Assembly (NCBI GenBank): GCA_027483445.1
Contig: JAIXUS010000032.1
Location: 1-50,142, forward strand
DNA: 50,142 nt
Direction: 5' to 3'
Origin: Bacteroidota bacterium
GTDB taxonomy: Bacteria; Bacteroidota; Bacteroidia; M30B66
Below the pieces are notes generated by a model that had not been told where the DNA came from, did not search any database, and worked only from the letters and a program-made list of their open reading frames with translations. A program made the translations under genes and the position numbers. Shown here in pieces: positions 1,850-27,346 of this stretch; positions within the stretch are counted from its first letter, which is position 1; each line of letters starts with the position of its first letter.

Positions 1850-3103
1850 ATGCAAGATCGGGTAAAACTGACAAAACGATACATCGATGCGCAGACACCG
1901 GACCCAGAGAAAGAGCGCTGGATCTGGGATAGCGAAGTGCGTGGATTGTTCTTGCGCATCTATCAAAGTGGCGAAAAGCGCTTTGCTTTGAAGTTCAGAG
2001 TTGGCCGTCAGCAAAAGGTCTTCACGATTGGGACTGTGGGTTCTCCATGGACCATCGAGACAGCCCGCGAACATGCCAAGGAGCAATTGCGCGACGCCTC
2101 TCTTGGTGTGGATCCGCAGAAGCGCAAGGCCGCGGCACGGGCTGAGCTCACGGTGTCCGAGCTCATCGATCGCTACTTGAAGGAAGGGCCAGCCGATAAG
2201 CCAAACAAACGTGCTGCGACCTGGGAGCAGGATCGATCAAGCCTGCACTCCCACATTCGGCCTCTGCTGGGTAGTCGCATTGCTGCTCACCTGAAACCGT
2301 CTGATCTTGCAAAAGCGCAAAGTGAAATCGCCGCCGGGAAAACCGCTGTCTCGGCGCTTAGTGGCAAGAAGCGTGGGCGGCTCAACATAACGGGTGGCAA
2401 GACGACCGCATCACGCTGCACAATCATTTTTCAAGCGATGATGGCTTGGGCTGTTAGCCGGAAGATTTTGGTTGCCCATCCCACATTGGGTGTGGTGCGC
2501 TATAAGATCGAAAAGCGCGAGCGCTTCATCAGCGTTGATGAAGTCCAAAAGATATTTGAAGCCACGGAACGTCTTGAGAAGCGCGGCGAGGTCCGATCTG
2601 AATTCGGCCTCATCATTCGATTATTGATCCTTACCGGTGCGCGTCGAGGCGAGATCCAAGGCCTCCAGTGGCGCGAAGTGGATTTGGCTCGGCGTTCAAT
2701 TGTTCTGCCCGATGCCAGATCAAAGACTGGTGCGCGCCGAATTCCACTATCCGATGCCGCTATTGAAGTGCTGGAGGGGATCAAACGCAAGGGCGACTAT
2801 GTCTTCCCGGCCAATCGCGTCAATGCGGCTTCCGGCCATACCGTAGGCCTACCCCGCGCCTGGCGCGCAATTCGCGATGAGGCAGGTCTAGATGATCTTA
2901 GGATCCACGACCTACGTCATTCCTTTGCGTCATTTGCTGCTGAGGCAGGGGCCAGTCTGCAGCTTATTGGGAAGGCCCTCGGTCATACCCAAATGCGGAC
3001 TACCGAACGCTATGCGCATCTGCGGGATGCTCCCTTACATGCATTGGTCAATGAGATTGGGGAACGAGTGAAGGCGGCGAAGAGGGTGCCGTCAGTCGAG
3101 TAA
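1850..3103 (+). CDS. int: P4-type tyrosine integrase
   Basis: 417 aa, about the usual length for the DUF4102-containing integrases that insert islands into tRNA genes. Residues 1-90 form the arm-binding DUF4102 domain (LTKRYIDA..PDPEKERWIWD..VRGLFLRI). A core-binding domain follows at about 100-230, then the catalytic domain. All catalytic residues are visible: Arg near 265 in TGARRGEI, His-x-x-Arg near 353 in HDLRHSFAS, His near 378 in LGHTQMRTT and Tyr near 388 in ERYAHL. It should be active. It lies just inside the attL copy and reads into the island. The intact tRNA is at the opposite end, which is less usual. Confidence 0.93.
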   Translation: MQDRVKLTKRYIDAQTPDPEKERWIWDSEVRGLFLRIYQSGEKRFALKFRVGRQQKVFTIGTVGSPWTIETAREHAKEQLRDASLGVDPQKRKAAARAELTVSELIDRYLKEGPADKPNKRAATWEQDRSSLHSHIRPLLGSRIAAHLKPSDLAKAQSEIAAGKTAVSALSGKKRGRLNITGGKTTASRCTIIFQAMMAWAVSRKILVAHPTLGVVRYKIEKRERFISVDEVQKIFEATERLEKRGEVRSEFGLIIRLLILTGARRGEIQGLQWREVDLARRSIVLPDARSKTGARRIPLSDAAIEVLEGIKRKGDYVFPANRVNAASGHTVGLPRAWRAIRDEAGLDDLRIHDLRHSFASFAAEAGASLQLIGKALGHTQMRTTERYAHLRDAPLHALVNEIGERVKAAKRVPSVE

Positions 3104-3258: not shown

Positions 3259-5013
3259 TCAGTGCCACAAACTGAATGCCGCTGGCACAAATCCATTCTC
3301 GGTCTTTTGCTCAAAGGTCAATGATAGTTGAGCGCCCATTGTGTCTTGAAAATATCCAAGCCTAATCGGGTGTGGGCCCGCTTTCAACCCGACAAGGCCT
3401 GAACGGGTGCGGGAGGCATGTGAACCATCATTATCGACGATTAGTGCCTCATTCAAAAAAACGACTGCGCCATCGTCAGACGTAGCGCTCACGCGATAGA
3501 GACCGTCGCTCTTGATCTCAACAAAACCCTCAAACCAAATCCCATAATGGTTCTTCCGACGTGCTAAGCGAGCTACATCAAAGTCTTGACTAGTACCCGT
3601 CTGCACTACTCGAGGTGTGGCGGCTCTAAAATCTGGCATGCGTTGGAATTCGCCCTCGAAATAGCGATAGCGCAGGCCGCTGGCTGTGCGATTGACTTGC
3701 GCGGCGGGGTTTAACACCACAGGCGAATATGAAGCTGCAAAGTCCCGACTTCTTTTGAAGCCGGTTGAATCAAAATAAGCTGCTTTGACTTGAGTTGCAG
3801 CCCTGATCGAAAAAGGCTCACTGTAAAGTTGGGAATTGTGATTTGGGTCTGTGCCGTCTAACGTGTAACGAATTTGAAGCTGGGGCATCCGCGTCGCGAT
3901 TTTGATCTTTTGTTCGCCTAAGAAAAATCGTTCAGCGGGAAAATCCATCGACAATGTCAATGCATCAAAATTAACACGATAAGTGAACTCGGTGTTACCC
4001 GTCTGTGTGTCAACAGTACGATAAACTAGGTGCGCTTTGTTGATCCGATCATCTGACCATTGAACATCAATTAGGCCCATGCTGTGAACCGAAATCGCCG
4101 CCGGGCTGTCGCGATACGAATTGAACTCAGGCTCTTCGGTTTGGTTTAGCCCAGCAAATTGAAGCTCGATCGCATCAAAATCAAGCGCACCGGTTTTTCT
4201 AGCAACCTCGCCATAGTGCTGATCCCCCGTAATGAACACGAGGCGCTCGCTTTTGGCCTGGCGTATAGACCGCATCAATCGGTCAAATGATTTTGGATAT
4301 TGATCCCAAGTTTCAGAGCCACTTTCGCGGTCAAGGAATATTTGGGAGCCGCTGACCAGTAAGGTTAGGTCAGCTCTTACTTCTAGAGCACCTTCTAGCC
4401 ATTGCCATTGGCGCTCTCCCAATATGTCGCCTTTTCCATCGGGTTTATCGCGATGAGTGCGGACATCAAGCATAATGACGTGAAGGCGCTGTCCGCCATG
4501 CTCATAAATGCGGTCGTGATAGATGCCGTCATTTGGATGGGGTAGCTGGCCTTGCAAGCCCCAAAATTGCGTAAACAGCCGCGTACTTTCCGCCTTCAGT
4601 GGATATTCAGCGCCAGCATTATTGTCGCCGTAATCATGATCATCCCAGGTTGCAATGTGCTGCCCCATCGCGCGCAATTGCGAAAAGCCCGGCAAGCGCG
4701 CCAGAGCTTCATACCCTTGAGCGATCAGCTCAGGTTTATCTTGAGTATCCACATAGATGTTGTCGCCAACCCAGATCGAGAGGTCAGGACGCGCATCCAC
4801 ATAGGACTGCAACGCCGGGACAGGTTGGTATTGCCGGATACACCCCAAGAGAGCGATGCGGCGGATTGGTTCGTTCAGTTGAATGACTATCGGGCTTGAG
4901 TAAGCAGGACTTCTGTGCGGACTGCTCGCCAGCGATCGGTCTTGCGAAGTGGCGCTCGTCCCCAAGGACACAATAAGTGCCGTTGCCATCCAAACAATCA
5001 GTTTAAGGCGCAT
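3259..5013 (-). CDS. Exported PhoD-like metallophosphatase with chitobiase-C-like and PA14-like domains
   Basis: 584 aa with an N-terminal signal peptide (residues 1-24). The catalytic part, about 50-330, has PhoD-type metal-binding motifs: GDNIY at 83-87, WDDHDYG at 123-129 and FITGDQHYGE near 262. PhoD enzymes hydrolyse phosphate mono- and diesters outside the cytoplasm. A CHB_HEX_C-like segment (YTLDGTDPN...Y, about 375-430) follows. A C-terminal PA14-like domain (about 445-575, YFEGEFQRMPDF...DDGAVVFLN) is usually a glycan-binding module. The fusion suggests a polymer- or glycan-attached phosphoester. It is last in the minus-strand group after the PhnZ-like gene. Confident for fold, not for substrate. 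Confidence 0.85.
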   Translation of the reverse strand: MRLKLIVWMATALIVSLGTSATSQDRSLASSPHRSPAYSSPIVIQLNEPIRRIALLGCIRQYQPVPALQSYVDARPDLSIWVGDNIYVDTQDKPELIAQGYEALARLPGFSQLRAMGQHIATWDDHDYGDNNAGAEYPLKAESTRLFTQFWGLQGQLPHPNDGIYHDRIYEHGGQRLHVIMLDVRTHRDKPDGKGDILGERQWQWLEGALEVRADLTLLVSGSQIFLDRESGSETWDQYPKSFDRLMRSIRQAKSERLVFITGDQHYGEVARKTGALDFDAIELQFAGLNQTEEPEFNSYRDSPAAISVHSMGLIDVQWSDDRINKAHLVYRTVDTQTGNTEFTYRVNFDALTLSMDFPAERFFLGEQKIKIATRMPQLQIRYTLDGTDPNHNSQLYSEPFSIRAATQVKAAYFDSTGFKRSRDFAASYSPVVLNPAAQVNRTASGLRYRYFEGEFQRMPDFRAATPRVVQTGTSQDFDVARLARRKNHYGIWFEGFVEIKSDGLYRVSATSDDGAVVFLNEALIVDNDGSHASRTRSGLVGLKAGPHPIRLGYFQDTMGAQLSLTFEQKTENGFVPAAFSLWH

Positions 5014-5133: not shown

Positions 5134-5706
5134 CTAGCCCTTGGCGAGTGCTGCAGTGAGGTGGCGATCAAGAATATCTTCGAGTGTAGGTGTGATTGCC
5201 GTGGGGTCTTTGGCAGTTTCGTCAATCTGCCGCAAAGAAATCGCTTCTTGTGCGAAAGGTGTCCTCAAGAATTCTTCTTGTTCATTCAGGCTCAACGGTC
5301 CACCTTGCAAGGCCAAGCTTATTACAGAGTCACGGGCAAGGCTGGCTTCATAGACTGGATCAACCGAACAGAGATAACGTTTGGCCTGGACATGTAGGCG
5401 GATCGGTTCACTAACGGCTTGACCAAAATGCTGTTGAACCCAATTTGCACCGAGCTCTTCATGTCGATCATCAACACCGACCTCGGCTGGAGCCTCGCCC
5501 AAGGAATGAACCATATGTCCAACATCGTGCAGCAGACACGCGATCACCATTGAAGAGGGTAACCCTTTGGCCTCGGCTAAAGCTGCCGCTTGCAGGGCAT
5601 GCTGGAGTTGATTGATGTTGTGCAAGCCATACGCTTTATTTGCCTTCATCCCATAAACCGCTAGAATTTCGTCTTTGATTCGGGGAATCGCTGTCTCAGC
5701 GGTCAT
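5134..5706 (-). CDS. PhnZ-like HD-domain oxygenase (phosphonate-degradation HDIG family)
   Basis: 190 aa, the usual length of PhnZ. PhnZ is a mixed-valence diiron oxygenase that cleaves the C-P bond of hydroxylated phosphonates, releasing phosphate. Residues aligning with the PhnZ metal ligands are all present: His36, His60-Asp61, His82, His105 and Asp162. Phosphonate-contact candidates His64, Lys109, Ser127 and Arg159 are also present. The LHVQAKRYL and LALQGGP blocks are typical of this family. Where PhnZ has Tyr24-x-x-Glu27 this protein has Tyr26-x-x-His29, so the residue that binds the substrate amine is changed. The start has an AAGGA site. LysR lies upstream and the PhoD-like gene downstream on the same strand. 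No PhnY hydroxylase gene is in the window. Confidence 0.85.
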   Translation of the reverse strand: MTAETAIPRIKDEILAVYGMKANKAYGLHNINQLQHALQAAALAEAKGLPSSMVIACLLHDVGHMVHSLGEAPAEVGVDDRHEELGANWVQQHFGQAVSEPIRLHVQAKRYLCSVDPVYEASLARDSVISLALQGGPLSLNEQEEFLRTPFAQEAISLRQIDETAKDPTAITPTLEDILDRHLTAALAKG

Positions 5707-5745: not shown

Positions 5746-6687
5746 TTATATTACGTTACCCTTAGTGGCAAGTTCTATAAACGCCGAGACAGCTGGAATT
5801 TCCATGCTTTCTTTGAGCCCAACGAGAAAAACACCGGCTGTTTGTGAAAGATCTTCAACAAGAACTGCATGAAACCGGCTGTCTTCACCAATCTCGCCTT
5901 CTAGCACAAAGCCGAGACCTATTTGGTGGGCAACGGCCTCTTTTACGGCTTCGCGGCTTGCGACCTCGAGGACGGGTTGCCATGGCTCACCGGCCAAGCT
6001 GCATGCGGTTTCTGCCAAAGCGCGCGTGACGGAACCATTTTCCCTAGTAACAAATTTCTGGCCAACTAATTCCTTTAGCTTGATCGATTTTCTGTTCGAC
6101 CAGGCGTGATTTGCAGGTACCAAGACATTCAGTGCCTGCCGCGCGAGAAAACGGCAAGACAGATTTTCGTTTGGCTCCAAAAGAGACAGGATCACAATAT
6201 CGGCGCGACACTCGCTTACATCTTGGAGTAAAGATGCTGTATTGCCCGCCCGCGTTACAATCTGCACGCCTTGGTGAGCTTTCATAAAGGCACTTACGAG
6301 ACCCAATGCGATAGGCGGTGTGGAGAAGCCAACCACCAATCTACCACGCTGCAAATTATTAAACTCATCGGCCATTGCCTCAAAATCATCCATCCGACTG
6401 ATAACCAGCCGCGCGCGAACAAATAATTCTCGGCCCAATTCCGTCAAAAGCTGAGTTGTATTGCGCCGATTGATCAAACGCGATCCACACGCTGTCTCTA
6501 AGCTGCTGATTTGGTTCGATATGTTGGGTTGCGTCATACCCAATTCCGCTGCGGCTTTTGAAAAGCTGCCGGTCTCGATGACAGCAACAAAGGCGCGCAA
6601 GGCCCCAATGCTAATAGCACCATCTTTGCGAAACGCTTGAGGCGAGTTTTGTTGTGACAAGGTAGCTGGAGAATCAGACGGCTTCAT
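5746..6687 (-). CDS. LysR-family transcriptional regulator
   Basis: 313 aa. The N-terminal winged HTH (about residues 28-85) reads ALRAFVAVIETGSFSKAAAELGMTQPNISNQISSLE, a textbook LysR DNA-binding domain. The periplasmic-binding-protein-like sensor domain follows (GRLVVGFSTPP near 115). It precedes the PhnZ-like gene by 39 bases on the same strand, so it probably controls that gene and perhaps the whole organophosphorus locus, with a phosphonate or its breakdown product as effector. LysR regulators of phosphonate genes are known. The link here is by position only. Confidence 0.88.
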   Translation of the reverse strand: MKPSDSPATLSQQNSPQAFRKDGAISIGALRAFVAVIETGSFSKAAAELGMTQPNISNQISSLETACGSRLINRRNTTQLLTELGRELFVRARLVISRMDDFEAMADEFNNLQRGRLVVGFSTPPIALGLVSAFMKAHQGVQIVTRAGNTASLLQDVSECRADIVILSLLEPNENLSCRFLARQALNVLVPANHAWSNRKSIKLKELVGQKFVTRENGSVTRALAETACSLAGEPWQPVLEVASREAVKEAVAHQIGLGFVLEGEIGEDSRFHAVLVEDLSQTAGVFLVGLKESMEIPAVSAFIELATKGNVI

Positions 6688-7001: not shown

Positions 7002-9908
7002 TTAATGCTTGTAAGTGAGCGTTAGGAAGAAGCTCCGACCCGCTTCCACATAGTCTTTCTGATAAGCAGAAGACTCCCCTTTTGTAGCCCAATATGCATG
7101 GCTATCTAGAAGGTTTTGCGCTTCAAAACTGATCGACAAGCCGGTATCCTTAAAATTGTAGCGTGCCGAGAAGTCCAAACGATCCCAAGCTTGGATCCAT
7201 TTATCGACACCATTATCACGTGTGTCTTCGATATATTTGTTGCTGTAGTTGTAGGATAGACGTGTTTCAAAGCCGAACTTCTCATAGAAAATAGAGATAT
7301 TGGCTTGGCTGTCCGGGGAATTGATCAGGGGGATGATGTCTCGGCCCAAGGGTAAGCGGGTTGGATCGCCTGTGCTAGCCTCAGTTTCTTGAAGGGTTGC
7401 GTTGAAGATAAAGCCTAGACCGTCAAACGGACTGGGTAGAAAACGCAATTGTTGTTGGACACCAAACTCAAGGCCACTGACCGTTGCACTCGTGCCGTTC
7501 AGAGGCTGGGAAATGTTGACCCCATCCGGATTAAGGCTGGAAGCGGAGACAGCATTGTTCAAGAAGATGAACTTTTTGATGTCCTTGTGATAAATGGCAG
7601 CTTGAACCAGTCCGACTTGCTGATTGTACCATTCAAATCCAAGATCGAAGTTCAAGGATTCGGTTGGCTTTAGGTTAGGGTTGCCGCGCGAAATCGCTGT
7701 GATCTGTCCTTGGGCATTGCGCGTTACGGATTCACGTGCGGAAATGTTTTGGAATTCTGGTCGTGAGATCGATGTCCAAATAGCGCCGCGTGCGACAATG
7801 TTTGGATTTGGTCGATAGTTCACGTGGATGCTCGGCAGCACATTGGTGTAATCTGAGTTAGACGTCGTGTTACCTGTTACGCCGCCCGTACCGGTGTCTG
7901 TACGCCAAAAGGTGTTTTCAACTTCAGTCCGCTCAACCCGCACCCCAATCGTTGCGTCCCAAGCTTTGTGCTTTAGTTTTGTGAGGCCATAAATCGCCAA
8001 GACATCTTCTTCGCCACTGCTGTCATTTTGCAGGTTGGAAGTGATCGTTGCTTGTTCCAATCCAGAGGTCAGGCCACGAAGAAAGCTTTGAACTCCATCT
8101 GGACTATAAAGCGTGCCGAAGCGTCGATTGCCTGAGTAGACCCCGTTGAACATCGGGCCATAGTCTGCTCCAACAAGGCCACGCGCAGCGGCAGTTGACC
8201 TGGTGGGGGCGAGTAAGTTTACCTCTGTTGAAGATGCATTCAACTCACGATTTTGATCACGAGCGCGACTGGAACGAACAAACTTGATGCCTGCACCGAG
8301 TGATTCGAAGATACCCTTATTGGAACGAAAGCGAATATCGGCTTTAGCAGTTGTCTTTTCGTCGGTGATCTCGTCATTATTGATCGAACCGCCGTTGAAG
8401 CGGAACAAGCTATCGTCGTACACTAAACTCGAGCCGTTGCCGGCTAGATTCCACAAAGGAAAGCGCTCGTCAGACGTATCAAACGTGACGCCATTGGTCA
8501 GGAAATAATCATCGAAGGTGCCGGCGAGACCGCCGTCAGCCCGATACTCGAGAGAGTAGCTTTGATTGCTTTCTTCCCCGGTTGATTGAGAAATTTCACC
8601 CGATACATCCAGCCGATCTTTGCTCCACTCGCCACCAAGTGCAACAAAGCCTTGAGCTTTGGTGATTTCGCGGCTGCCAAAATAGCGATCAACACGCATA
8701 CGTGCCGGTGCATAGACGCCACCTGGACCGTTAGCAGACCAAAGCGAGCTGCCCGCAGGAGCGGTCGGCGTGGCTAAGCGAGGGGAGGCGATCGAGCGTA
8801 CTACCAGACCATTGTTGATCACTGACCGATCAAACTGACCAAATTGGCCGCGCATATAGAGCTTGGTGGCGTCATTGGGGCGCCAATCAAATGAGAAATT
8901 GCCCCCAAATCGCTCCAGTGAATTTTCATAGAGGTCAAGTCCGACTCCTGGAAGGAACAAAGAATTTTCATCAATGGCGACATTGGCGTCTCTGCGCCAC
9001 AAGAACGGTTCCCATTCGCCTTCATTCTCACTCTCTTCCGACACCGTGTCTCGCGCCCCGGCATAGAAGGAAACATAAACGCCAAAATTCTCAGACGAGC
9101 CGAAAACATTTGAGAAGTTGCCGGAGATTTTCGTACCTCTCCCATCGCCGCGATCTTGATATGACCCTTCGACTGCAAGTCCATAATGCATGCCGCGGCG
9201 GTCAAAAGCGGTAGGGGTGATCAAATCGACCGTTCCCCCGATCGCATCGCCATCCATGTCAGGCGTTGACGTTTTAGAGACACGTAGCTGTTGATAGCCG
9301 TCCGTTGGCAACGTATCGAGCGCGATTTGCCGATCCGTCTGGGTCTGAGCCAGCCGAACCCCGTTTACCGTAAAGACGTTAAGCCCACTATCGAGACCAC
9401 GAATCGTGACCAATTGCCCTTCGCCGGTCTGTTGATCGCGCACCAAGGTTACGCCAGGTAGGCGGGAAAGTGACTCAGCAACATTGTTGTCAGGAAAGCG
9501 ACCTGCTTCATCTGCTGATTGGACGGCGACCGTGTTGCTTGCAGAGCGCTGGTCGTTCAATGCGCGGGCTTGGCCCAAGCGTATGCCGCGGACAATGACA
9601 AGTTCACCCGCCTGCTTCAAGCGAATCTCAAACCCACGCTCTTTTTCAAAGGCTTCCGTTTTTGCATCGTAACCAATTGCTGAAACTGTGATCTGGCTGT
9701 CGATGCCCGTATCCAAAACAAACGACCCATCCGGTCCGGTAGATGTCGACGCACCTGATGGGGTTGTTACCAATGCGCCCTTAATCGCAGCGCCCGTGTC
9801 GGTATCCACTACGCGACCACGCACGGCTTGGGCTTCCGCTGCACTATAAAAGCCGACACTTGCACAAGCCACCGTTGTTGCCAGCAACATGCTACGCCAA
9901 TTTGCCAT
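7002..9908 (-). CDS. TonB-dependent receptor, Xanthomonas-Caulobacter class with carboxypeptidase-regulatory-like N-terminus
   Basis: 968 aa from the start at 9908, chosen because GGAGGA lies 7 bases before that ATG; a frame extending to 9926 lacks such a site. Signal peptide residues 1-27 (AAEAQA). A CarboxypepD_reg-like repeat follows (VRGRVVDTDTGAAIKGALV..TGPDGSF). The plug carries NNVAESLSRLPGV and TIRGLDSG, and a long beta-barrel ends in an aromatic terminal strand (FFLTLTYKH). Receptors of this class in Caulobacter and Xanthomonas import plant- or algal-derived oligomers. Here it sits between an exported phosphatase with PhnCDE genes and the PhnZ-like gene, which suggests an organophosphorus substrate or phosphorylated glycan. 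It is probably regulated with them. Confidence 0.9.
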   Translation of the reverse strand: MANWRSMLLATTVACASVGFYSAAEAQAVRGRVVDTDTGAAIKGALVTTPSGASTSTGPDGSFVLDTGIDSQITVSAIGYDAKTEAFEKERGFEIRLKQAGELVIVRGIRLGQARALNDQRSASNTVAVQSADEAGRFPDNNVAESLSRLPGVTLVRDQQTGEGQLVTIRGLDSGLNVFTVNGVRLAQTQTDRQIALDTLPTDGYQQLRVSKTSTPDMDGDAIGGTVDLITPTAFDRRGMHYGLAVEGSYQDRGDGRGTKISGNFSNVFGSSENFGVYVSFYAGARDTVSEESENEGEWEPFLWRRDANVAIDENSLFLPGVGLDLYENSLERFGGNFSFDWRPNDATKLYMRGQFGQFDRSVINNGLVVRSIASPRLATPTAPAGSSLWSANGPGGVYAPARMRVDRYFGSREITKAQGFVALGGEWSKDRLDVSGEISQSTGEESNQSYSLEYRADGGLAGTFDDYFLTNGVTFDTSDERFPLWNLAGNGSSLVYDDSLFRFNGGSINNDEITDEKTTAKADIRFRSNKGIFESLGAGIKFVRSSRARDQNRELNASSTEVNLLAPTRSTAAARGLVGADYGPMFNGVYSGNRRFGTLYSPDGVQSFLRGLTSGLEQATITSNLQNDSSGEEDVLAIYGLTKLKHKAWDATIGVRVERTEVENTFWRTDTGTGGVTGNTTSNSDYTNVLPSIHVNYRPNPNIVARGAIWTSISRPEFQNISARESVTRNAQGQITAISRGNPNLKPTESLNFDLGFEWYNQQVGLVQAAIYHKDIKKFIFLNNAVSASSLNPDGVNISQPLNGTSATVSGLEFGVQQQLRFLPSPFDGLGFIFNATLQETEASTGDPTRLPLGRDIIPLINSPDSQANISIFYEKFGFETRLSYNYSNKYIEDTRDNGVDKWIQAWDRLDFSARYNFKDTGLSISFEAQNLLDSHAYWATKGESSAYQKDYVEAGRSFFLTLTYKH

Positions 9909-10010
9909 AACCAAATCCTCCATCATCCAAGCCGCAGAACTGAATATAACTATTCAGAATGTTTCGCCTTGGACCATAGGCCATAATTATGACACTTCGG
10001 TGTTGGCCAC

Positions 10011-11810
10011 CTAGTTTTTTGCTCTGTTTGCAGGTTTAATCTGAAACTGATCCCGTAATCGGCCTGACATATCCACGACGCGAATGTCCAAGGCACTGTC
10101 TGAAACGCTGATTGCGGCGTAATGGTGATCCCGGAATGTTTGCCGCGAGAACCATGGTTTATTGGGTGCAAAGTCTTCAAGATTGCCACCAGCACCTCCT
10201 ACTTGAAGGTAGGTGACACCCTTCTCAATATCGACTTGATTACCACGAAGCGGCCAACTCCGCTCATACGAGTGCAAATGTCCAAACAAAACCAAATCTA
10301 CTCCGAAGCGTTCGAACAAAGGCACAAAATCAGTCTGAACCTCAGAGTCGCCGTGCTGCGAAGTACTATGCCATGAATTACCATAATCGTCTTCATCAGA
10401 GGTTCTGGTATCGTGGTGATGCAGTGCGATCTTCCATTTTGCATTAGATTTGCTGAGGGCTTGTTCGAGCCAAGCCCGCTGTCTTGCTCGAAATCCCGGG
10501 TCACTTTTCTCGCGATACTTGAGGTAAGAATCCAGAACAAAGAATTCGACGTCGCCATAAACAAGGCTGTAATAGTTTTCCGGCTCTGGCTGGCGATGAT
10601 AATGACGAAACCATTTTAGCTCTTGCTCGCCGTTGCCAATCGCCGCGACAACCGGAACCCGACCAAACAAGGGCCCCATGCCGCGGAAATATTCGTGTGT
10701 CCATTCAAAGCGTCGCTCTACACTGCCACCATCAGTCAGATCGCCGGCAATCAGCATGAGATTTGGTCGTTCCGGCCAGATCTGCTGGGAAATAGCATTA
10801 TTGACATGCGCGCGCGCTTCGGTGTCGCCGATTGCAACAAAGGTGAATGGTCTACCAGGTGATGGCGCTGTCCGAAAACTAAGCAGCCCTGAGCTAATCA
10901 TGTTGCCGGCCTCATCGCGTCCGCTGACGCGGTAGAAATAGGGGGTATCAGGACTCAGATCCTTGAGCCGTGCGCCATGCAGCCGAGCTGGAGACATCTG
11001 TGTGCCGACCACTTTCAAGTCGGCTTCGGTTGTCCCAACTTCAATGGTAGACGTTGCGGCACGGTCAAACTCAAACGAAAGCTCCATCGAAGTCAAAGAT
11101 GGCGTGTTGAGGTAGGGTGGCTGGGTAAAATGCATTTGATTGGCAAAAATTCGACCTTCATCAACCAATTTCGTGCGGGCAGTGAAACGCTCCATCACCT
11201 CGAGGGCAGACAGAGCTTTTGGATCAACCGATACAACTTGAACCAAATTGGCCACTTGCATGCTTGGCTCGTTCTTCAAATATGCGTCGAGCCGAATTGG
11301 GCCAGCCTGGAGCGTTCCTGGTGAAATAACTGAAGTTGCGGCTGCAGCGCCATCAACATATAAAGTCAAACTCGGCCCGCTTCTGGTTAATACGAGGTGT
11401 CGCCAGTTTGACTTGTAGCCGCGACGTGGCAGTATTTGCTTGTTGAGTGTCGATTGCACACCGAAAGCTGCCCGCCCGGTCATGTATCCAAGATGGGCCT
11501 CACCGACACTCAAGAGCGCCCCGACAGGATTGTTCACATGATCGAGTAGCCAAAGCTCTAAAGTTAAATCACCTTCCGGAGCAACTTCAGCCAAAATTCG
11601 AGACTCGCTCGCTTCAGCACCAAAAAACAAGGGGGCGGCGATTGGCATTCTAACTAAAGGGGCGAAATCATCGACCGCTGCCGGTTTGATGGCGGCGTTG
11701 CGTGGCAAATCATAGCCCGGATCTAGCGCCCACTCTTGTGCCGATAAGGGTAGCGAATGCAGGAAGGTTGCTCCCACAATGGCGATCAAACTGAAATTTT
11801 TCAGGCGCAT
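10011..11810 (-). CDS. Exported purple-acid-phosphatase-like metallophosphoesterase with LamG-like domain
   Basis: 599 aa with a signal peptide (residues 1-24, LPLSAQ). A concanavalin/LamG-like domain spans about 75-165 (LTLELWLLDH...WRHLVLTRSG..LTLYVDG). A fibronectin-like PAP N-domain follows at about 235-320 (DLSPDTPYFYRVSGRD), then a calcineurin-type phosphoesterase domain. Motifs: GDTEA near 325, AGDLTDGG near 355, GNGEQE near 391, LHHHDTR near 466 and GHLHSYERS near 511. The usual GNH[ED] motif has Gly in place of His, although the metal-binding Asn remains. It likely releases phosphate from an extracellular polymer or glycan ester. It starts 20 bases after phnD ends, so it belongs to the phnC-E-D transcript. 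Confidence 0.85.
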   Translation of the reverse strand: MRLKNFSLIAIVGATFLHSLPLSAQEWALDPGYDLPRNAAIKPAAVDDFAPLVRMPIAAPLFFGAEASESRILAEVAPEGDLTLELWLLDHVNNPVGALLSVGEAHLGYMTGRAAFGVQSTLNKQILPRRGYKSNWRHLVLTRSGPSLTLYVDGAAAATSVISPGTLQAGPIRLDAYLKNEPSMQVANLVQVVSVDPKALSALEVMERFTARTKLVDEGRIFANQMHFTQPPYLNTPSLTSMELSFEFDRAATSTIEVGTTEADLKVVGTQMSPARLHGARLKDLSPDTPYFYRVSGRDEAGNMISSGLLSFRTAPSPGRPFTFVAIGDTEARAHVNNAISQQIWPERPNLMLIAGDLTDGGSVERRFEWTHEYFRGMGPLFGRVPVVAAIGNGEQELKWFRHYHRQPEPENYYSLVYGDVEFFVLDSYLKYREKSDPGFRARQRAWLEQALSKSNAKWKIALHHHDTRTSDEDDYGNSWHSTSQHGDSEVQTDFVPLFERFGVDLVLFGHLHSYERSWPLRGNQVDIEKGVTYLQVGGAGGNLEDFAPNKPWFSRQTFRDHHYAAISVSDSALDIRVVDMSGRLRDQFQIKPANRAKN

Positions 11811-11830: not shown

Positions 11831-12778
11831 TTAGGGTAGCGAGGCCCGAGCTTGGCTAATCTCTGCTTGCGCGGCTGCAATTTCGGCTGTTGAAGCGCGT
11901 CTTTTCGCATCAATTAGTTTGGACCATGCTTTCAATTCTTTCGTTGCCGCTAAGTGGCGATTGTCAGCGATCGTAAATTTCTTGAGGCCCAGCTTTGAAA
12001 GCACCGCTCGCTGTTGCTCACCAACTGACCCCGGTGCTTGGCCATAGGTCGTAACGAAGGCACGTATCTTTGACTTCAACGCCGGGTCCAAGTCTCTGCG
12101 CCAAACCATTGGGTCATCAGGTAGGCGCGGGGACGTCCAGATAACGGTTAGGTTTTGAGTTGCTTCTGGTGCCCTTGCTGCAACTCGGCTGAGAACACTT
12201 GAATCTACAATCGCAACATCAACCAAGCCATTCGATACAGCCAATATATTTGCTTCGTGATTTGCTGTTTTAGACGTTTTGAAACAGCGCATAGGGTCGA
12301 GATTATTAGGCCCCCATAAATACGCGTTTGGGGACAATGTGCCTGAGGTTGATTGGGGGTCGGAGGCCGCAAAGTCGAACCTCCCATCGCAGGCAATAAC
12401 TTTCGACAAGGAGATATTTCTATCTGTTCGGGCGATCATATGGCTAAAATAGCCGCCACGCTCTGCGATCGCGAACACTTCGCCATCTGATCGCTCAACG
12501 GCCTCAAGGGCGGACGCATTTCCAAACCAGCCCAATTGCGTTTGTTTAAACCGCATGGCTTCAATCAACACAGAGTAGTTGGGACCAAAGTAGGCCTCGA
12601 CTTGTTGACCAAGGGCGGTACGCATATCGTTCAGAAAAGGAGTCCAATCGGGTCGCGTGGCGGCACTACTCTCAGTCGACAGAATCGAAAATCGAATGGC
12701 TTCCGGTGGTGGGGCGCATGATCCGCTTGTCACCACTGCCAAAAAAACCAGCGAGCGAAGAAAACCGACCCACTTCAT
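11831..12778 (-). CDS. phnD: Phosphonate/phosphate ABC transporter substrate-binding protein, PhnD-like
   Basis: 315 aa. The hydrophobic N-terminus ends in VVTSGSCAPP, so it is a secretion signal and possibly a lipoprotein anchor, although the lipobox is imperfect. The body has the PhnD/PtxB-type periplasmic binding fold: IRFSILSTES, FGPNYSVLIEAMRFKQTQLGWFGN near 80-105, FAASDPQSTSG near 145, and VDVAIVDSS near 195. The start overlaps the permease stop by an ATGA, showing translational coupling. The product captures a phosphonate or phosphate-ester anion in the periplasm. Substrate specificity is not readable from sequence. Confidence 0.88.
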   Translation of the reverse strand: MKWVGFLRSLVFLAVVTSGSCAPPPEAIRFSILSTESSAATRPDWTPFLNDMRTALGQQVEAYFGPNYSVLIEAMRFKQTQLGWFGNASALEAVERSDGEVFAIAERGGYFSHMIARTDRNISLSKVIACDGRFDFAASDPQSTSGTLSPNAYLWGPNNLDPMRCFKTSKTANHEANILAVSNGLVDVAIVDSSVLSRVAARAPEATQNLTVIWTSPRLPDDPMVWRRDLDPALKSKIRAFVTTYGQAPGSVGEQQRAVLSKLGLKKFTIADNRHLAATKELKAWSKLIDAKRRASTAEIAAAQAEISQARASLP

Positions 12779-13560
12779 AACAAGCGTCTCCGTATTGCAT
12801 CAGATAAAAGATCAAGTGCTGCAACCACCACCACAACGACCAATGCGATGGCGGCGGTTTCGCGATAAGCAAATCGGTTGATAGCCTCAAAGAGCGCTTG
12901 ACCTATTCCGCCCGCTCCAATTAGTCCGAGCACGGTTGCTGAGCGCGCGTTGGATTCAAATCGATAAAGTGCGTACGATGTCCATAGAGGAGCGACTTGG
13001 GGCGCAATACCCCAAACTACTTGTGCTAAAGCGTGAGCACCTGTGACTCGGATTCCTTCGACCGGTCGCATGTCGATACTCTCGACAGCTTCGGAGAATA
13101 ACTTGCCCAAAACCCCGGCTGTATGGGCGGCTATCGCCAACACGCCAGCCAATGGCCCAAGTCCAACTGCAACTAGGAAAATGGTCCCTAGCACTAATTC
13201 ATTAACCGAGCGCAGGACATCCATGATCCGTCGTGTCACAAAAACAACAGGAGCTGGCGCGACATTGCGCGCGCCCAACAAACCAAGCGGCAGACCAATC
13301 ACCACGGCCAATGCCGTCCCCCACAGTGCAATTTGTAGGGTCAAGAGCATTTGGGCTGCATAATAGGGGAGTTGCGCGAAGTCGGGACGCAAAAACTCTT
13401 GCGCAAAGCGCTGCATATTCTCTGAATTTTCAAACAGAAGCGGCGTTCGCGACATCTGGGCAGGATGGAAACTAAACGCAAGCGCCAACGCTAATGATGC
13501 CCATACCAGCCAATTAAACGTACCGTTGGCCTTTAGCTTTGACGTGTCAGAGGGCATCAT
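12775..13560 (-). CDS. phnE: Phosphonate ABC transporter permease, PhnE-like
   Basis: 261 aa from 13560. That start is preceded by GCGAGGA at good spacing; another ATG at 13575 would lengthen it by five residues. There are about six membrane segments. The permease EAA-type loop is visible as GIRVTGAHALAQVVWGIAPQV near 190, followed by VLGLIGAGGIGQALFEAINRF, a hallmark of PhnE. It forms the inner-membrane channel for the importer with PhnC and PhnD. It overlaps phnC upstream and phnD downstream, so all three are translationally coupled. Confidence 0.9.
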   Translation of the reverse strand: MMPSDTSKLKANGTFNWLVWASLALALAFSFHPAQMSRTPLLFENSENMQRFAQEFLRPDFAQLPYYAAQMLLTLQIALWGTALAVVIGLPLGLLGARNVAPAPVVFVTRRIMDVLRSVNELVLGTIFLVAVGLGPLAGVLAIAAHTAGVLGKLFSEAVESIDMRPVEGIRVTGAHALAQVVWGIAPQVAPLWTSYALYRFESNARSATVLGLIGAGGIGQALFEAINRFAYRETAAIALVVVVVVAALDLLSDAIRRRLL

Positions 13561-14320
13561 CGAATTCCTCGCCATAGATTGTTTTCAACTCAGCCGAGCT
13601 CATCGTGTCAGGGGGACCATCGAAAACAATTTTTCCTTGATGCAAGGCGATGACGCGCTGACAGTAACGACGAGCCATGGCGATGTTATGAAGGCTCACC
13701 ACGACGCTAACGCCGCTTTGTGCATTCAGGTTAGCCAGAAGCTCCATAACACGCTTGCCCGAAACGGGGTCCAGAGAAGCGACCGGTTCATCGGCAAGAA
13801 TGAGTTCTGCCTCTTGTGCAATGGCGCGGGCGACGGCACCGCGTTGTTGTTGCCCACCCGAAAGAGTGCTGGCGCGTGCTGTGGTAAAGTCCTTGAGGCC
13901 AACCCGTTCAATGGCGGCCAGCACCCGTTCAACATGATCTTGGGGCCATAGTCCTAAAACAGCACAATAAAGTGGTAGTTTCCCCAACCCACCAACTGCG
14001 ACATTTGAGAACAGTGATAGCCGCCCGACCAAATTGCTGCTCTGGGCCACATAACCAATCCGAGTACGCGTTTCCCGCATCTGACCGCGGTCCTGCTCCA
14101 GCCTTTCAGACTCAATTCCAAAAAGCTTGAGTTCACTGCCACTATCGAACCGAAGCAATTGCGCAAGACCTCGCAATAATGTGGACTTTCCAGACCCCGA
14201 TGGCCCAATGAGCGCCGTCATTTCACCTTTTGAGAGATCAAAACTGATCTTGTCTAAAACTTGGCTAGAACCAAAGCTTTTGGAAACGTTGGAAACTTGC
14301 AGGGGAAACGCCGGTTCCAT
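13547..14320 (-). CDS. phnC: Phosphonate ABC transporter ATP-binding protein, PhnC-like
   Basis: 257 aa, the usual PhnC length. All ABC motifs are intact: Walker A GPSGSGKSTLLRG near 37-49, Q-loop GYVAQSSNLVGRLSLFSNVAVG near 90, signature LSGGQQQRGAVARA near 148, Walker B LILADEPVASLDP near 170 and a switch His in VVVSLHNIAMA. PhnC energises import of phosphonates or phosphate esters. This is the first gene of the minus-strand group phnC-phnE-phnD-phosphatase, so its upstream region (14321-14815) should hold the operon promoter. Confidence 0.92.
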   Translation of the reverse strand: MEPAFPLQVSNVSKSFGSSQVLDKISFDLSKGEMTALIGPSGSGKSTLLRGLAQLLRFDSGSELKLFGIESERLEQDRGQMRETRTRIGYVAQSSNLVGRLSLFSNVAVGGLGKLPLYCAVLGLWPQDHVERVLAAIERVGLKDFTTARASTLSGGQQQRGAVARAIAQEAELILADEPVASLDPVSGKRVMELLANLNAQSGVSVVVSLHNIAMARRYCQRVIALHQGKIVFDGPPDTMSSAELKTIYGEEFDDAL

Positions 14321-23610: not shown

Positions 23611-26010
23611 ATGTTCATGACTGTATCAGCACGCGCTTTGCTTTTTGCGATGGGCGCATCCGCCTTCGCATTTCCTGTTTTTGCGCAAAACGCGCCACCG
23701 GCTCCTGCGCCCGCTCCTGAGGCCGAAGTCGTTGTTGTGACGGGAACGCGCGAGGCCGGGCGCACGCAATTCCAGACATTGGCGCCCGTTGATGTGCTGT
23801 CAGCTGCCGCTTTGGATCAGACTGTATCGTCGGAAGTCGGCGACGCTTTGGCGGCCACGGTTCCGGGTTTTGTGCAACAGCGCTTGCCTTTGGCCGATGG
23901 CGCGACCTTTGTTCGCCCAGCCTCTTTGCGTAACTTATCGCCAGACCAGACCTTGGTTCTTGTCAACGGCAAGCGCTTCCACCGCTCTGCGGTCTTGGGG
24001 AGCCGGGGTGCGCAGGCCCCTGATTTAGCCCAGATTCCAAGCCTTGCCATTAAGCGCATCGAAGTGCTGCGCGATGGCGCTTCGGCTCAATATGGGTCTG
24101 ACGCGATTGCTGGTGTTATTAATATCGTGCTTGATACGACTCCTGGGTTTCAACTCAATGCCCAGGTTTCTGAATATTACGAAGGTGACGGGCGGAAAAC
24201 CCAAATCGGTGGCCAAGCTGGCTTTGAAATCCTCGATTCAGGCTTCTTGGTCGTTAGCTTAGAGCTGAATGAAGGCGAAATTACCTCGCGCTCGCGCCAG
24301 CGCCCTGATGCAGCCGCCTTCCAAGCCGCCAATCCAACATTGGTGGTGCCAAATCCAGCGCAACGCTGGGGTCAACCTGAGTTGTCAAATTGGCGCTTTG
24401 GCGCGAATTTCCAAATGCCGATTAATGATACGATTGATGCTTATGCATTTGCGACTGTAGGAGCAGGTGAAGGCAAGACCGACTTCAATTATCGCCTGCC
24501 AAGCCCAACAGCCAATGCGGCCGTCTATGGCATCACCTCGGTTTTTCCAGGCTATGATTTGCGGACCCGTTTCCCTGTCGGCTTCTCGCCCATATTTGGC
24601 TATGAGGACGAGGACCACCAGATTGTTGGCGGTGTTCGCGGCGGCAGCGAGAAGTTCACATGGGACATTAGTGTGTCTGAGGGTGGCAATACGGTTGACT
24701 ATAATTTGTCAAACACCGTCAATGCGTCGCTTGGTCCCGCAAGCCCCACGAGCTTCAAGCCTGGCATCTTGCAGCAAAACGAGCTGAATGTGAATGCTGA
24801 TTTTGTCTATCAGTTGGCCGTTCCCGGCCTCGCAAAAGATGTCAATCTGGCTTTTGGTCTTGAGCGCCGCATTGAGACCTATACAATCAAGGAAGGCGAA
24901 AGAGCCTCTTGGGTAGTGGGACCGGGCGCAATTGCAGGCTTGGCGCCCGGATCAAACGGCTTCCCGGGCTTTGACCCCCAACAAGCGGGCGAATGGGATG
25001 TTGAGAGTTTTGCGGGCTATGTCGATGGCGAATTCGCCCTGACGGATGCTTGGACAGTTGGAACAGCTATCCGCTACGAAGACTTTTCGTCCTTTGGCGA
25101 AACGGTGGACGGCAAAATTGCCACCCGCTATGAATTCACCCCTGATTTCGCGATCCGCGGGTCCTATTCCACGGGTTTCCGTGGACCGACACCTGGCCAG
25201 ATTAACTCAACGACTGTTGTGCAGGGCCTCGATACGCTGACAGGCCAAATCTTTAACCGGGGCCGCTTGTCATCCGCTGATCCGCTGGCCGCTAAGTTAG
25301 GGGTTAAACCACTTGAGCCCGAAGAGTCTGAAACAATCAGCGGCGGGATCACATGGCGCAGTGCATTCGGACTGACAGGTACGATCGATTTATATCGTAT
25401 CAATGTTGACAACCGATTTGCTGAATCGCGGGTGTTCTCACGCGCGGAGATTGAAGCGCTTGGACCCAATCCAAACCAATATACCGGGGTGTTTTTCTTC
25501 ATCAACGCCTTTGATACTGAGACCAGTGGTATTGATATTGCGGGCTCTTATGCGTCCAGCATCGGCCCCGGTCGCTTGGACCTTACCGCTGCCTTCAACT
25601 TCAATGAAACAGAAGTCGTAGGCGGTACAGGGTCAGTGGTCACAAGCCTCGACCAAAAGCGTCGTCTTGAAGAAGGGCGGGGGAAATATGGTGCGACTTT
25701 GGGTGCCAATTACACGCTCGATAAGTTCCGCTTTTCAGCCCGCGCGCGCTATTATGGCTCATTTGCCGATGCGGCCACCAATGGTGCAGGCGATATTTTC
25801 CAAGAGATTGGTGCGATCACCTTTTTCGATGCGTCGGTGCAATATGAGGTCAATGAGAACCTGACGGTTCGCATTGGTGGCGAGAATATCTTTGATGCCT
25901 ATCCAGACGAAGCAACGTTCCAAGCCAACCGTGGTTTGATCTATACACGTAACTCAAACTACGACACCGATGGCGGTCAATATTACTTCCGGGTTGAAAC
26001 CAAGTTCTAA
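23611..26010 (+). CDS. TonB-dependent receptor paired with an exported PLP enzyme
   Basis: 799 aa. An AAGGGG site lies 3 bases before ATG 23611; a second ATG at 23617 has better spacing and would remove two residues. Signal peptide to about residue 25 (VFAQ), a Pro/Ala linker, TonB box EVVVVTGTRE, plug LVNGKRFHRSAVLGSRGAQ and RIEVLRDGASAQYGSDAIAGVINIVL, and a barrel ending YYFRVETKF. The AQYGSDAIAGVIN plug is usual in receptors of unknown or metal-complex substrates. The class V aminotransferase-fold gene follows after 28 bases on the same strand, so the two are probably one transcript. Confidence 0.9.
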   Translation: MFMTVSARALLFAMGASAFAFPVFAQNAPPAPAPAPEAEVVVVTGTREAGRTQFQTLAPVDVLSAAALDQTVSSEVGDALAATVPGFVQQRLPLADGATFVRPASLRNLSPDQTLVLVNGKRFHRSAVLGSRGAQAPDLAQIPSLAIKRIEVLRDGASAQYGSDAIAGVINIVLDTTPGFQLNAQVSEYYEGDGRKTQIGGQAGFEILDSGFLVVSLELNEGEITSRSRQRPDAAAFQAANPTLVVPNPAQRWGQPELSNWRFGANFQMPINDTIDAYAFATVGAGEGKTDFNYRLPSPTANAAVYGITSVFPGYDLRTRFPVGFSPIFGYEDEDHQIVGGVRGGSEKFTWDISVSEGGNTVDYNLSNTVNASLGPASPTSFKPGILQQNELNVNADFVYQLAVPGLAKDVNLAFGLERRIETYTIKEGERASWVVGPGAIAGLAPGSNGFPGFDPQQAGEWDVESFAGYVDGEFALTDAWTVGTAIRYEDFSSFGETVDGKIATRYEFTPDFAIRGSYSTGFRGPTPGQINSTTVVQGLDTLTGQIFNRGRLSSADPLAAKLGVKPLEPEESETISGGITWRSAFGLTGTIDLYRINVDNRFAESRVFSRAEIEALGPNPNQYTGVFFFINAFDTETSGIDIAGSYASSIGPGRLDLTAAFNFNETEVVGGTGSVVTSLDQKRRLEEGRGKYGATLGANYTLDKFRFSARARYYGSFADAATNGAGDIFQEIGAITFFDASVQYEVNENLTVRIGGENIFDAYPDEATFQANRGLIYTRNSNYDTDGGQYYFRVETKF

Positions 26011-26038
26011 TCCAGGATTGAACAAGGCGGGGCATTTT

Positions 26039-27346
26039 ATGGTCGACAATCAATTAGGCCAAATGTCCCGCCGCTCTTTCACCAAAGCGGTCGCAACTAG
26101 CTCTTCGCTCATGGGTCTAGCAGCCCATACCGCATCAGCGGCGCAGCCCTCAGCTGACTTTGCCGCTTTGGCTAAAGACGAGACCTATTGGACCCAAGCT
26201 GTCGGACAGCACTACACGCGCAATCCCGACTTTATCCAATTGGAGGCAGGAAACTTCGGCTCAATGGCAAGGCCTGTAGAGCGCGCCTATCAAAGCCATA
26301 TTGAGCGGGTTAATCAGCAAACTTCCTATTTTTCACGTCGTCAGTTTGACCCATTACTGGTCCCTATCCGCCAGAGGGTGGCAGCATCCTTGGGCGTGGA
26401 TGCAGAAGAAATCGCTTTCACCCGTGGCTGCACGGAATCGATGCAAGCCCTGATCAGCGGCTATAACAAATTAAAAGCTGGAGACGGTGTCCTAATCTGC
26501 GACCTCGATTATGACGCCATGCAGACCGCTATGCGCTGGCTCAAAGTCAGGCGGGGGGCGCAGATCATTGAGATTGGGATACCAGAACCTGCGAGCGTCG
26601 CAGGCATTTTAGACACCTATCGCGCAGCGTTGACCGCCAACCCGCAAGTAAAGCTCATGCTGGTGACCCATGTCAGTCATCGAACTGGTCTAGTGATGCC
26701 AGTCGCTGAGCTTGTAGCGCTTGCTAAGTCGCGCGGCGTCGATGTGCTTCTCGATAGTGGCCATGCTTGGGGCCAGTTAGACTTTAACTTGCGTGATCTG
26801 GGGGTCGAGTTTGCGGGTTTTTCCGCCCACAAATGGATTGGCGCCCCGGTCGGCGTCGGTGTGCTTTACATAAAAAAGGCCCGGCTCGACGACATTGACG
26901 ATTATATGGACATTGATGCGCACGCGACCCGCCAGATAGAGACCAAAATCCATACAGGCACAGCCAATTTCGCGGCCTTTCTCGCGCTCAAGGACGCGCT
27001 TGATTTCCACGAAGCCATTGGTGTCAAGGCCAAGGAAGCCCGCCTGCGTTATCTGCGAGATTTGTGGACAACCCAGCTTGCCGATCATGAAAGGATTTCC
27101 GTCCTAACACCCTCCGATCCTCGACTGACCTGCGGGCTGACGTCATTTCGGTTTAAGGGCGAAACCACTTCGGCAGCAAACCGAGCACGCGCTGCCAAAC
27201 TATTGAGCGATTTCAATATTTTCGCAGTTCACCGCAATGGTGTGGCATCTGGGGCCTGCGTTCGTGTGACGCCCACGATGTTTACGCCAAAGAGCGATAT
27301 CGACCAACTCGTTACCGCCCTTGTGCGCATGGTACGTGACGTTTAA
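26039..27346 (+). CDS. Tat-exported class V aminotransferase-fold PLP enzyme (isopenicillin-N-epimerase-like)
   Basis: 435 aa from ATG 26039. Residues 9-35 carry a twin-arginine signal (MSRRSFTKAVATSSSLMGLA...ASA), implying folding with PLP in the cytoplasm and export to the periplasm. The fold-type-I core has TRGCTESMQALISGY near 130, DSGHAWGQ near 238 (the Asp that binds the PLP nitrogen) and FSAHKWIGAP near 262 (Schiff-base Lys). Relatives include isopenicillin N epimerase and cysteine-desulfurase-like enzymes. Position directly after a TonB receptor suggests it processes an amino-group-bearing compound taken up by that receptor. The actual reaction is not known. Confidence 0.87.
   Translation: MVDNQLGQMSRRSFTKAVATSSSLMGLAAHTASAAQPSADFAALAKDETYWTQAVGQHYTRNPDFIQLEAGNFGSMARPVERAYQSHIERVNQQTSYFSRRQFDPLLVPIRQRVAASLGVDAEEIAFTRGCTESMQALISGYNKLKAGDGVLICDLDYDAMQTAMRWLKVRRGAQIIEIGIPEPASVAGILDTYRAALTANPQVKLMLVTHVSHRTGLVMPVAELVALAKSRGVDVLLDSGHAWGQLDFNLRDLGVEFAGFSAHKWIGAPVGVGVLYIKKARLDDIDDYMDIDAHATRQIETKIHTGTANFAAFLALKDALDFHEAIGVKAKEARLRYLRDLWTTQLADHERISVLTPSDPRLTCGLTSFRFKGETTSAANRARAAKLLSDFNIFAVHRNGVASGACVRVTPTMFTPKSDIDQLVTALVRMVRDV

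Follow-up and report, generated by a model that had tools for sequence, protein, structure and literature searches.

HD-domain oxygenases of phosphonate catabolism and the protein at this locus

The closest solved relatives of the protein studied here, PhnZ (HF130_AEPn_1; 4mlm, 4mln, 4n71) and TmpB (Leisingera caerulea; 6npa), carry a YxxE loop in which the Tyr sits on Fe2 before substrate is present and the Glu then contacts the substrate amine (PMC8177086). In both pathways a 2OG hydroxylase partner, PhnY or TmpA, respectively, is expected next to the gene or elsewhere in the genome. Gimesia maris PhnZ1, a hydroxymethylphosphonate dioxygenase, has a methylphosphonate hydroxylase partner, and the fungal protein PhoF is a PhnY-PhnZ fusion with AEP/APP substrates (PMC10574752). 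PhnZ relatives without PhnY have already been published (PMC8154272; PMC11203657): orphan phnZ genes were tabulated in phnWX/phnWAY clusters and never with pbfA (PMC8154272), and Achromobacter PhnHD (TIGR03276, 'phosphonate degradation HD-domain oxygenase') occurs with PhnX and HpnW and without PhnY* (PMC11203657). Free HAEP has been argued to be an environmental substrate (PMC8154272; PMC12366243).

We analyzed a 50,142-nucleotide stretch of DNA from a Bacteroidota bacterium, referred to below as the window. The open reading frame at 5134-5706, which the initial annotation had given without a strand, proved to be real and lies on the minus strand; it encodes 190 aa, begins with ATG and is preceded by AAGGAA, which resembles a ribosome-binding site. 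HD was the sole domain found by Pfam, and the best sequence matches among solved structures were TmpB 6npa (2e-29) and PhnZ 4mlm (2e-17), the identity to PhnZ being 29%. An AlphaFold2 model, built from an alignment of 28 clade and near-clade sequences, had a pLDDT of 90.4 and bore out the likeness to PhnZ for which structure prediction had been proposed as a check: it matched PhnZ (4n6w) with Z 25.0 over 179 residues and TmpB (6npa) with Z 24.4 (range over the PhnZ and TmpB structures, 23.6-25.0), the next fold being MIOX (Z 10.1) and other HD proteins having Z below 10. The scores against curated models were nevertheless below their cut-offs, at 191.6 bits for TIGR03276 (Phn-HD; cut-off 214.6), 131.6 bits for the TmpB equivalog NF049941 (cut-off 300) and 120.6 bits for the homologous Gimesia PhnZ1 model NF052439 (equivalog cut-off 300).

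The protein has the H...HD...H...H...D ligand motif of the PhnZ-type HD mixed-valent di-iron oxygenases. Across 108 homologues, the di-iron ligands H36, H60, D61, H82, H105 and D162 were invariant or nearly so, as were the active-site residues H64 (106/108), K109, S127, Q134, R159 and K166, and this conservation upholds the earlier match of the metal ligands and phosphonate-contact residues to PhnZ. PhnHD has these ligands too, among them the extra conserved histidine. The counterpart of the YxxE loop is Y26-G-L-H29 (5620..5631, minus strand; His29 codon CAC at 5620-5622), in which the Tyr of PhnZ and TmpB is retained but His29 aligns with PhnZ Glu27, as originally noted, and with TmpB Glu33. 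Residues 21-30 of the model had a mean pLDDT of 71, which fits a mobile loop.

A clade without the loop glutamate

Relatives were gathered from a named-genome scan (80 related loci), class- and phylum-wide surveys and annotated plasmid-record controls. The loop Glu was absent from 78 of 134 sequences (63 Ser, 6 Tyr, 5 His and 4 Ala), a count that leaves out L123, whose readable frame begins within the loop region, and that draws on query-based patterns for the Glu-less sequences, so intermediate sequences may be under-sampled. The Glu-less sequences form an alphaproteobacterial clade comprising Asticcacaulis, Reyranella, Rhodospirillales and others, and the 56 Glu-bearing sequences all fall outside it, whatever their partner gene. 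In a tree of 73 thinned rows, from which the loop columns were left out, a single branch (support 97/85) set the Glu-less group apart from all the rest, and in 99% of bootstrap trees the loss needed no more than one change; a single event thus suffices. The idea that His29 might be a lone oddity was rejected, since the loss of Glu is clade-wide (78/78 members).

The clade also has eight other invariant residues that are seldom seen beyond it: L28, N32, Q35, M65, H67, A74, D80 and D126. Asp126, which lies beside the invariant Ser127 (5326..5331, minus strand), was present in 31/31 thinned rows of the clade versus 3/42 outside, where Ala predominates, and Asp80, at the end of the segment from H67 that also holds A74 (5467..5508, minus strand), in 31/31 versus 9/42. 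All of these changes lie on one branch, so they count as one event and give no independent evidence for any given residue.

The clade members that we scanned with NCBIfam models scored under the current cut-offs, and the sole annotated example, on an Asticcacaulis plasmid (L116), is named only 'HD domain-containing protein'. The PhnHD members above the TIGR03276 cut-off that we examined (L110, L117) keep YxxE, whereas the clade has YGL[S/H/Y/A]. Viral contigs yielded one relative, which is Glu-bearing and whose upstream ORF reads as a TmpA-like 2OG dioxygenase.

Gene neighbourhoods and partner genes

The HD gene belongs to a minus-strand cluster with the phosphonate-catabolism setting of TIGR03276 (PhnCDE and a phn-type LysR). 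Upstream of it lie a LysR regulator (5746..6687; best model TIGR03339, AEP-catabolism associated, 210.7 bits, cut-off 341), a TonB-dependent receptor (7002..9926) and a LamG protein with a purple-acid-phosphatase-like metallophosphoesterase (10011..11810), the latter two being syntenic in Asticcacaulis L031 (37% and 56%), followed by the phosphonate-binding protein PhnD (11831..12778), the permease PhnE (12775..13575; above the TIGR01097 cut-off) and the ATPase PhnC (13547..14320; TIGR02315 252.6 bits, cut-off 266). On the other side is a PhoD-like phosphatase with chitobiase-C and PA14 domains (3259..5013, also minus), relatives of which also adjoin the HD gene in L002-L004, L033 and L035. 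Four of these genes stand in the same order in Asticcacaulis tiandongensis, where the purple-acid-phosphatase-like protein is 56%, the TonB receptor 37%, the LysR beside the HD gene 55% and the HD protein 59% identical. A scan for Pho-box-like patterns found 4 versus 3.7 expected by chance, and promoter and terminator scans gave fewer sites than in shuffles.

Elsewhere in the window are a GntR regulator (313-1047; best NCBIfam match phnR_burk, 72.6 bits, cut-off 271) and a TonB receptor with a PvdN/SufS-like class V aminotransferase-fold protein (23611-27346). A similar pair (51% and 47% identical) directly follows the HD gene on the Asticcacaulis plasmid (L116:12672-16422), which may reflect a functional link. 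A tyrosine integrase (1850-3103) adjoins the phosphonate cluster, and downstream (28737-49319) are relaxase-like, coupling-protein-like and restriction-modification-like genes and a serine recombinase beside tRNA-Ala. The HD gene was found in only one of five congeneric genomes examined, namely the source genome itself, and the region resembles mobile DNA that has integrated.

In Asticcacaulis, the HD gene adjoins phnX and a TIGR03364/HpnW oxidase, often together with a DUF5690 membrane protein; PbfD-type (TIGR03364) enzymes are known for N-methyl-AEP oxidation (PMC10590968). The PhnX-HpnW pair also stands beside Glu-bearing HD genes in Altererythrobacter (L108) and Comamonas (L152), so the loss of Glu did not follow a change of setting. 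The partner of further Glu-bearing relatives is PhyH (Dietzia, Rhodococcus), TauD or gamma-butyrobetaine dioxygenase (Labrenzia, Aliiroseovarius, Phyllobacterium) or C-P lyase (Nostoc, Variovorax), while some have none, and the hydroxylase next to the Dietzia gene has the methylphosphonate hydroxylase as its best model. The window cluster resembles PhnHD loci, which lack PhnY and have PhnX and HpnW, C-P lyase or PhnCDE as neighbours. In most Reyranella-type members (about 50 loci, e.g. L041:10672-11595), a serine/threonine dehydratase-like PLP gene adjoins the Glu-less HD gene, and no phosphonate genes were evident beside it. DUF5690, which recurs beside both HD types (L031:10679-12025 and many Glu-bearing loci), is a candidate phosphonate transporter; we found no mention of it in the literature searched. 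A LysR regulator and an oligopeptide-type ABC transporter (SBP_bac_5) lie near the Glu-less HD gene in L038, L048, L055, L063, L069 and L070, the first of which also has a PehA-like phosphoric/sulfuric ester hydrolase.

The initial annotation had reported that PhnY is absent, and this held beyond the window: the cluster has no PhyH or TauD gene, and searches of the source genome (reported 100% complete, 87 contigs) with PF05721 (PhyH), PF02668 (TauD), a PhnY-like protein and a fusion domain gave no match, so the locus differs from those of PhnZ, TmpB and Gimesia PhnZ1 in having neither PhnY, TmpA/TauD nor a methylphosphonate hydroxylase. These whole-genome searches also dispose of the explanation that PhnY is missing because the window is cut. 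In the same genome there was no match for PhnJ, and no true PhnX, HpnW or PhnA, the only matches being sub-threshold and generic (HAD, 38 bits; FAD-oxidoreductase, 34 bits; PhnA, 29.5 bits, respectively). Of the recognised C-P-cleaving enzymes that were tested for, the HD protein is therefore the only one present.

One clade member bears on the hydroxylase question. In L044 (= L132; 2697-4106), which is sister to the group of Asticcacaulis plus the query (SH-aLRT 92), a Glu-less HD domain is followed by a PhyH domain in a single 469-aa ORF, reminiscent in its arrangement of fungal PhoF but bacterial; its source is a metagenome bin, so a frameshift may have joined two adjacent genes, although adjacency would carry the same message. 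The PhyH domain matched PhyH at 4e-19 and a methylphosphonate-hydroxylase model at 1e-35, under its cut-off, and this best match does not discriminate, since no AEP-PhnY model was among the matches. A Glu-less HD domain fused to a PhyH hydroxylase means that loss of Glu does not imply independence from PhnY, and such a link is not supported. In the genomes of 40 relatives, PhyH searches found weak homologues only, save the fusion itself and one 42% match (L064 genome), in whose surrounding 3.5 kb the HD gene is absent.

The transporter offers a further view of the substrate. E. coli PhnD holds the AEP amine with Glu177 and Asp205 (PMC12718374, PMC5908839). In the window PhnD, E177 is replaced by S (12197-12199) and N175 by D (12203-12205), whereas D205 is kept (12113-12115; all minus strand); this numbering is anchored on H157, with the 3s4u chain (Ala there) taken as the H157A mutant, and is consistent with Asn175 in PMC5908839. 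The half-altered site may point to a non-amine substrate in this organism, which is suggestive but not decisive.

Proposed function and substrate

The HD protein is probably a mixed-valent di-iron oxygenase acting on a phosphonate that already carries a 1-hydroxy group, whose C-P bond it would break to give phosphate and a carboxylic acid, and its best reading is an unnamed variant of the PhnHD/PhnZ group whose substrate is an imported 1-hydroxyphosphonate. The initial annotation had likewise favoured a pre-hydroxylated substrate, and this is the most likely case given a PhnZ-type enzyme with Glu27 replaced and no PhnY partner. Since all other relatives examined retain this Glu, its replacement makes an altered substrate likely. 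What the data show are the family, a predicted fold, the ligands, the altered loop with its single origin, the neighbouring genes and the missing partner genes; the chemistry, mixed valence, loop gating and flow described next are inferred. The TonB receptor and secreted phosphoesterases would free and import a phosphonate, PhnCDE would carry it into the cell, the HD enzyme would oxidise C1 with O2, and LysR would sense the substrate. Tyr26 would probably still cap Fe2 in the substrate-free enzyme, and the residue that closes on the substrate tail upon binding would be Ser, His, Tyr or Ala, not Glu, in concert with the fixed changes at 28, 32, 35, 65, 67, 74, 80 and 126.

That the query falls short of the curated thresholds for TIGR03276, TmpB and PhnZ1 weighs against this reading, and the dehydratase-like neighbours of most Reyranella-type genes, with no visible phosphonate gene, allow for a different substrate class. 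The HD fold is mostly hydrolytic, and Pfam detects only 'HD'. Hydrolases are known among HD proteins with a dinuclear site (PMC11203657), but a phosphohydrolase or another non-oxygenase of the superfamily is very improbable here, the fold and sequence being far nearer PhnZ/TmpB than any hydrolase and Tyr26, K109, R159 and K166 being conserved. A hydroxylase partner from a family other than those searched, encoded elsewhere in the genome, would agree with the sister fusion, which shows that a PhyH hydroxylase can serve members of this clade; against the matchless PF05721, PF02668 and fusion-domain searches, we consider it improbable.

The nature of the substrate tail divides the oxygenase reading. 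The amine-free 1-hydroxyphosphonate preferred by the initial annotation, with Glu lost for want of an amine to bind, can be held only tentatively. It would account for the loss of Glu across the clade and its small or neutral replacements, for a window PhnD without Glu177, one of the two AEP-amine carboxylates, and for the methylphosphonate hydroxylase match of the sister fusion, were that match discriminating; but the same PhnD retains Asp205 and gains an acid at 175, and another Glu-less locus (L066) has a PhnD with both amine-binding acids. Moreover, it is not supported that the loss of Glu by itself points to an amine-free substrate: Glu-less siblings stand in PhnX and HpnW clusters of Asticcacaulis, clusters of this type also have Glu-bearing proteins (L108, L152), and Glu is kept beside the methylphosphonate-type hydroxylase of Dietzia, so its presence does not dependably signal an amine. 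Those aminophosphonate neighbours in Asticcacaulis, like the contrast in Asp126 and Asp80 between the clade and its outsiders, would suit a relocated amine contact, in which one of these residues takes over from Glu27 and the enzyme still acts on (R)-HAEP or its N-methyl form. We regard such relocation as rather unlikely, because changes that share one branch amount to one event and prove nothing statistically, and Asp126, where a predicted helix begins, could serve to cap it.

Taken over all readings, an aminated tail ((R)-HAEP or N-methyl-HAEP) approaches an even chance, a non-aminated one (e.g. hydroxymethyl- or 1,2-dihydroxyethylphosphonate) is possible, and any other tail is unlikely. We thus lean slightly to an aminated tail for the clade, while a neutral tail in this organism is a real possibility. 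It is even conceivable, if doubtful, that the clade is a distinct C-P oxygenase class for an environmental neutral-tail 1-hydroxyphosphonate, such as 1,2-dihydroxyethyl- or hydroxymethylphosphonate esters released extracellularly, and that here the transporter and the enzyme lost their amine-binding Glu together.

PhnY-less HD oxygenases of the PhnZ group are common, and we found no assigned substrate for them in the literature searched. To these our analysis adds the Glu-less clade, its single origin and its place below the curated cut-offs, the L044 fusion and the change in PhnD. A natural series in which one loop position carries Glu, Ser, His, Tyr or Ala, together with the HD-PhyH fusion, makes the role of the contact with the substrate tail testable and could bring to light a soil and freshwater phosphonate that has so far gone unrecognised.
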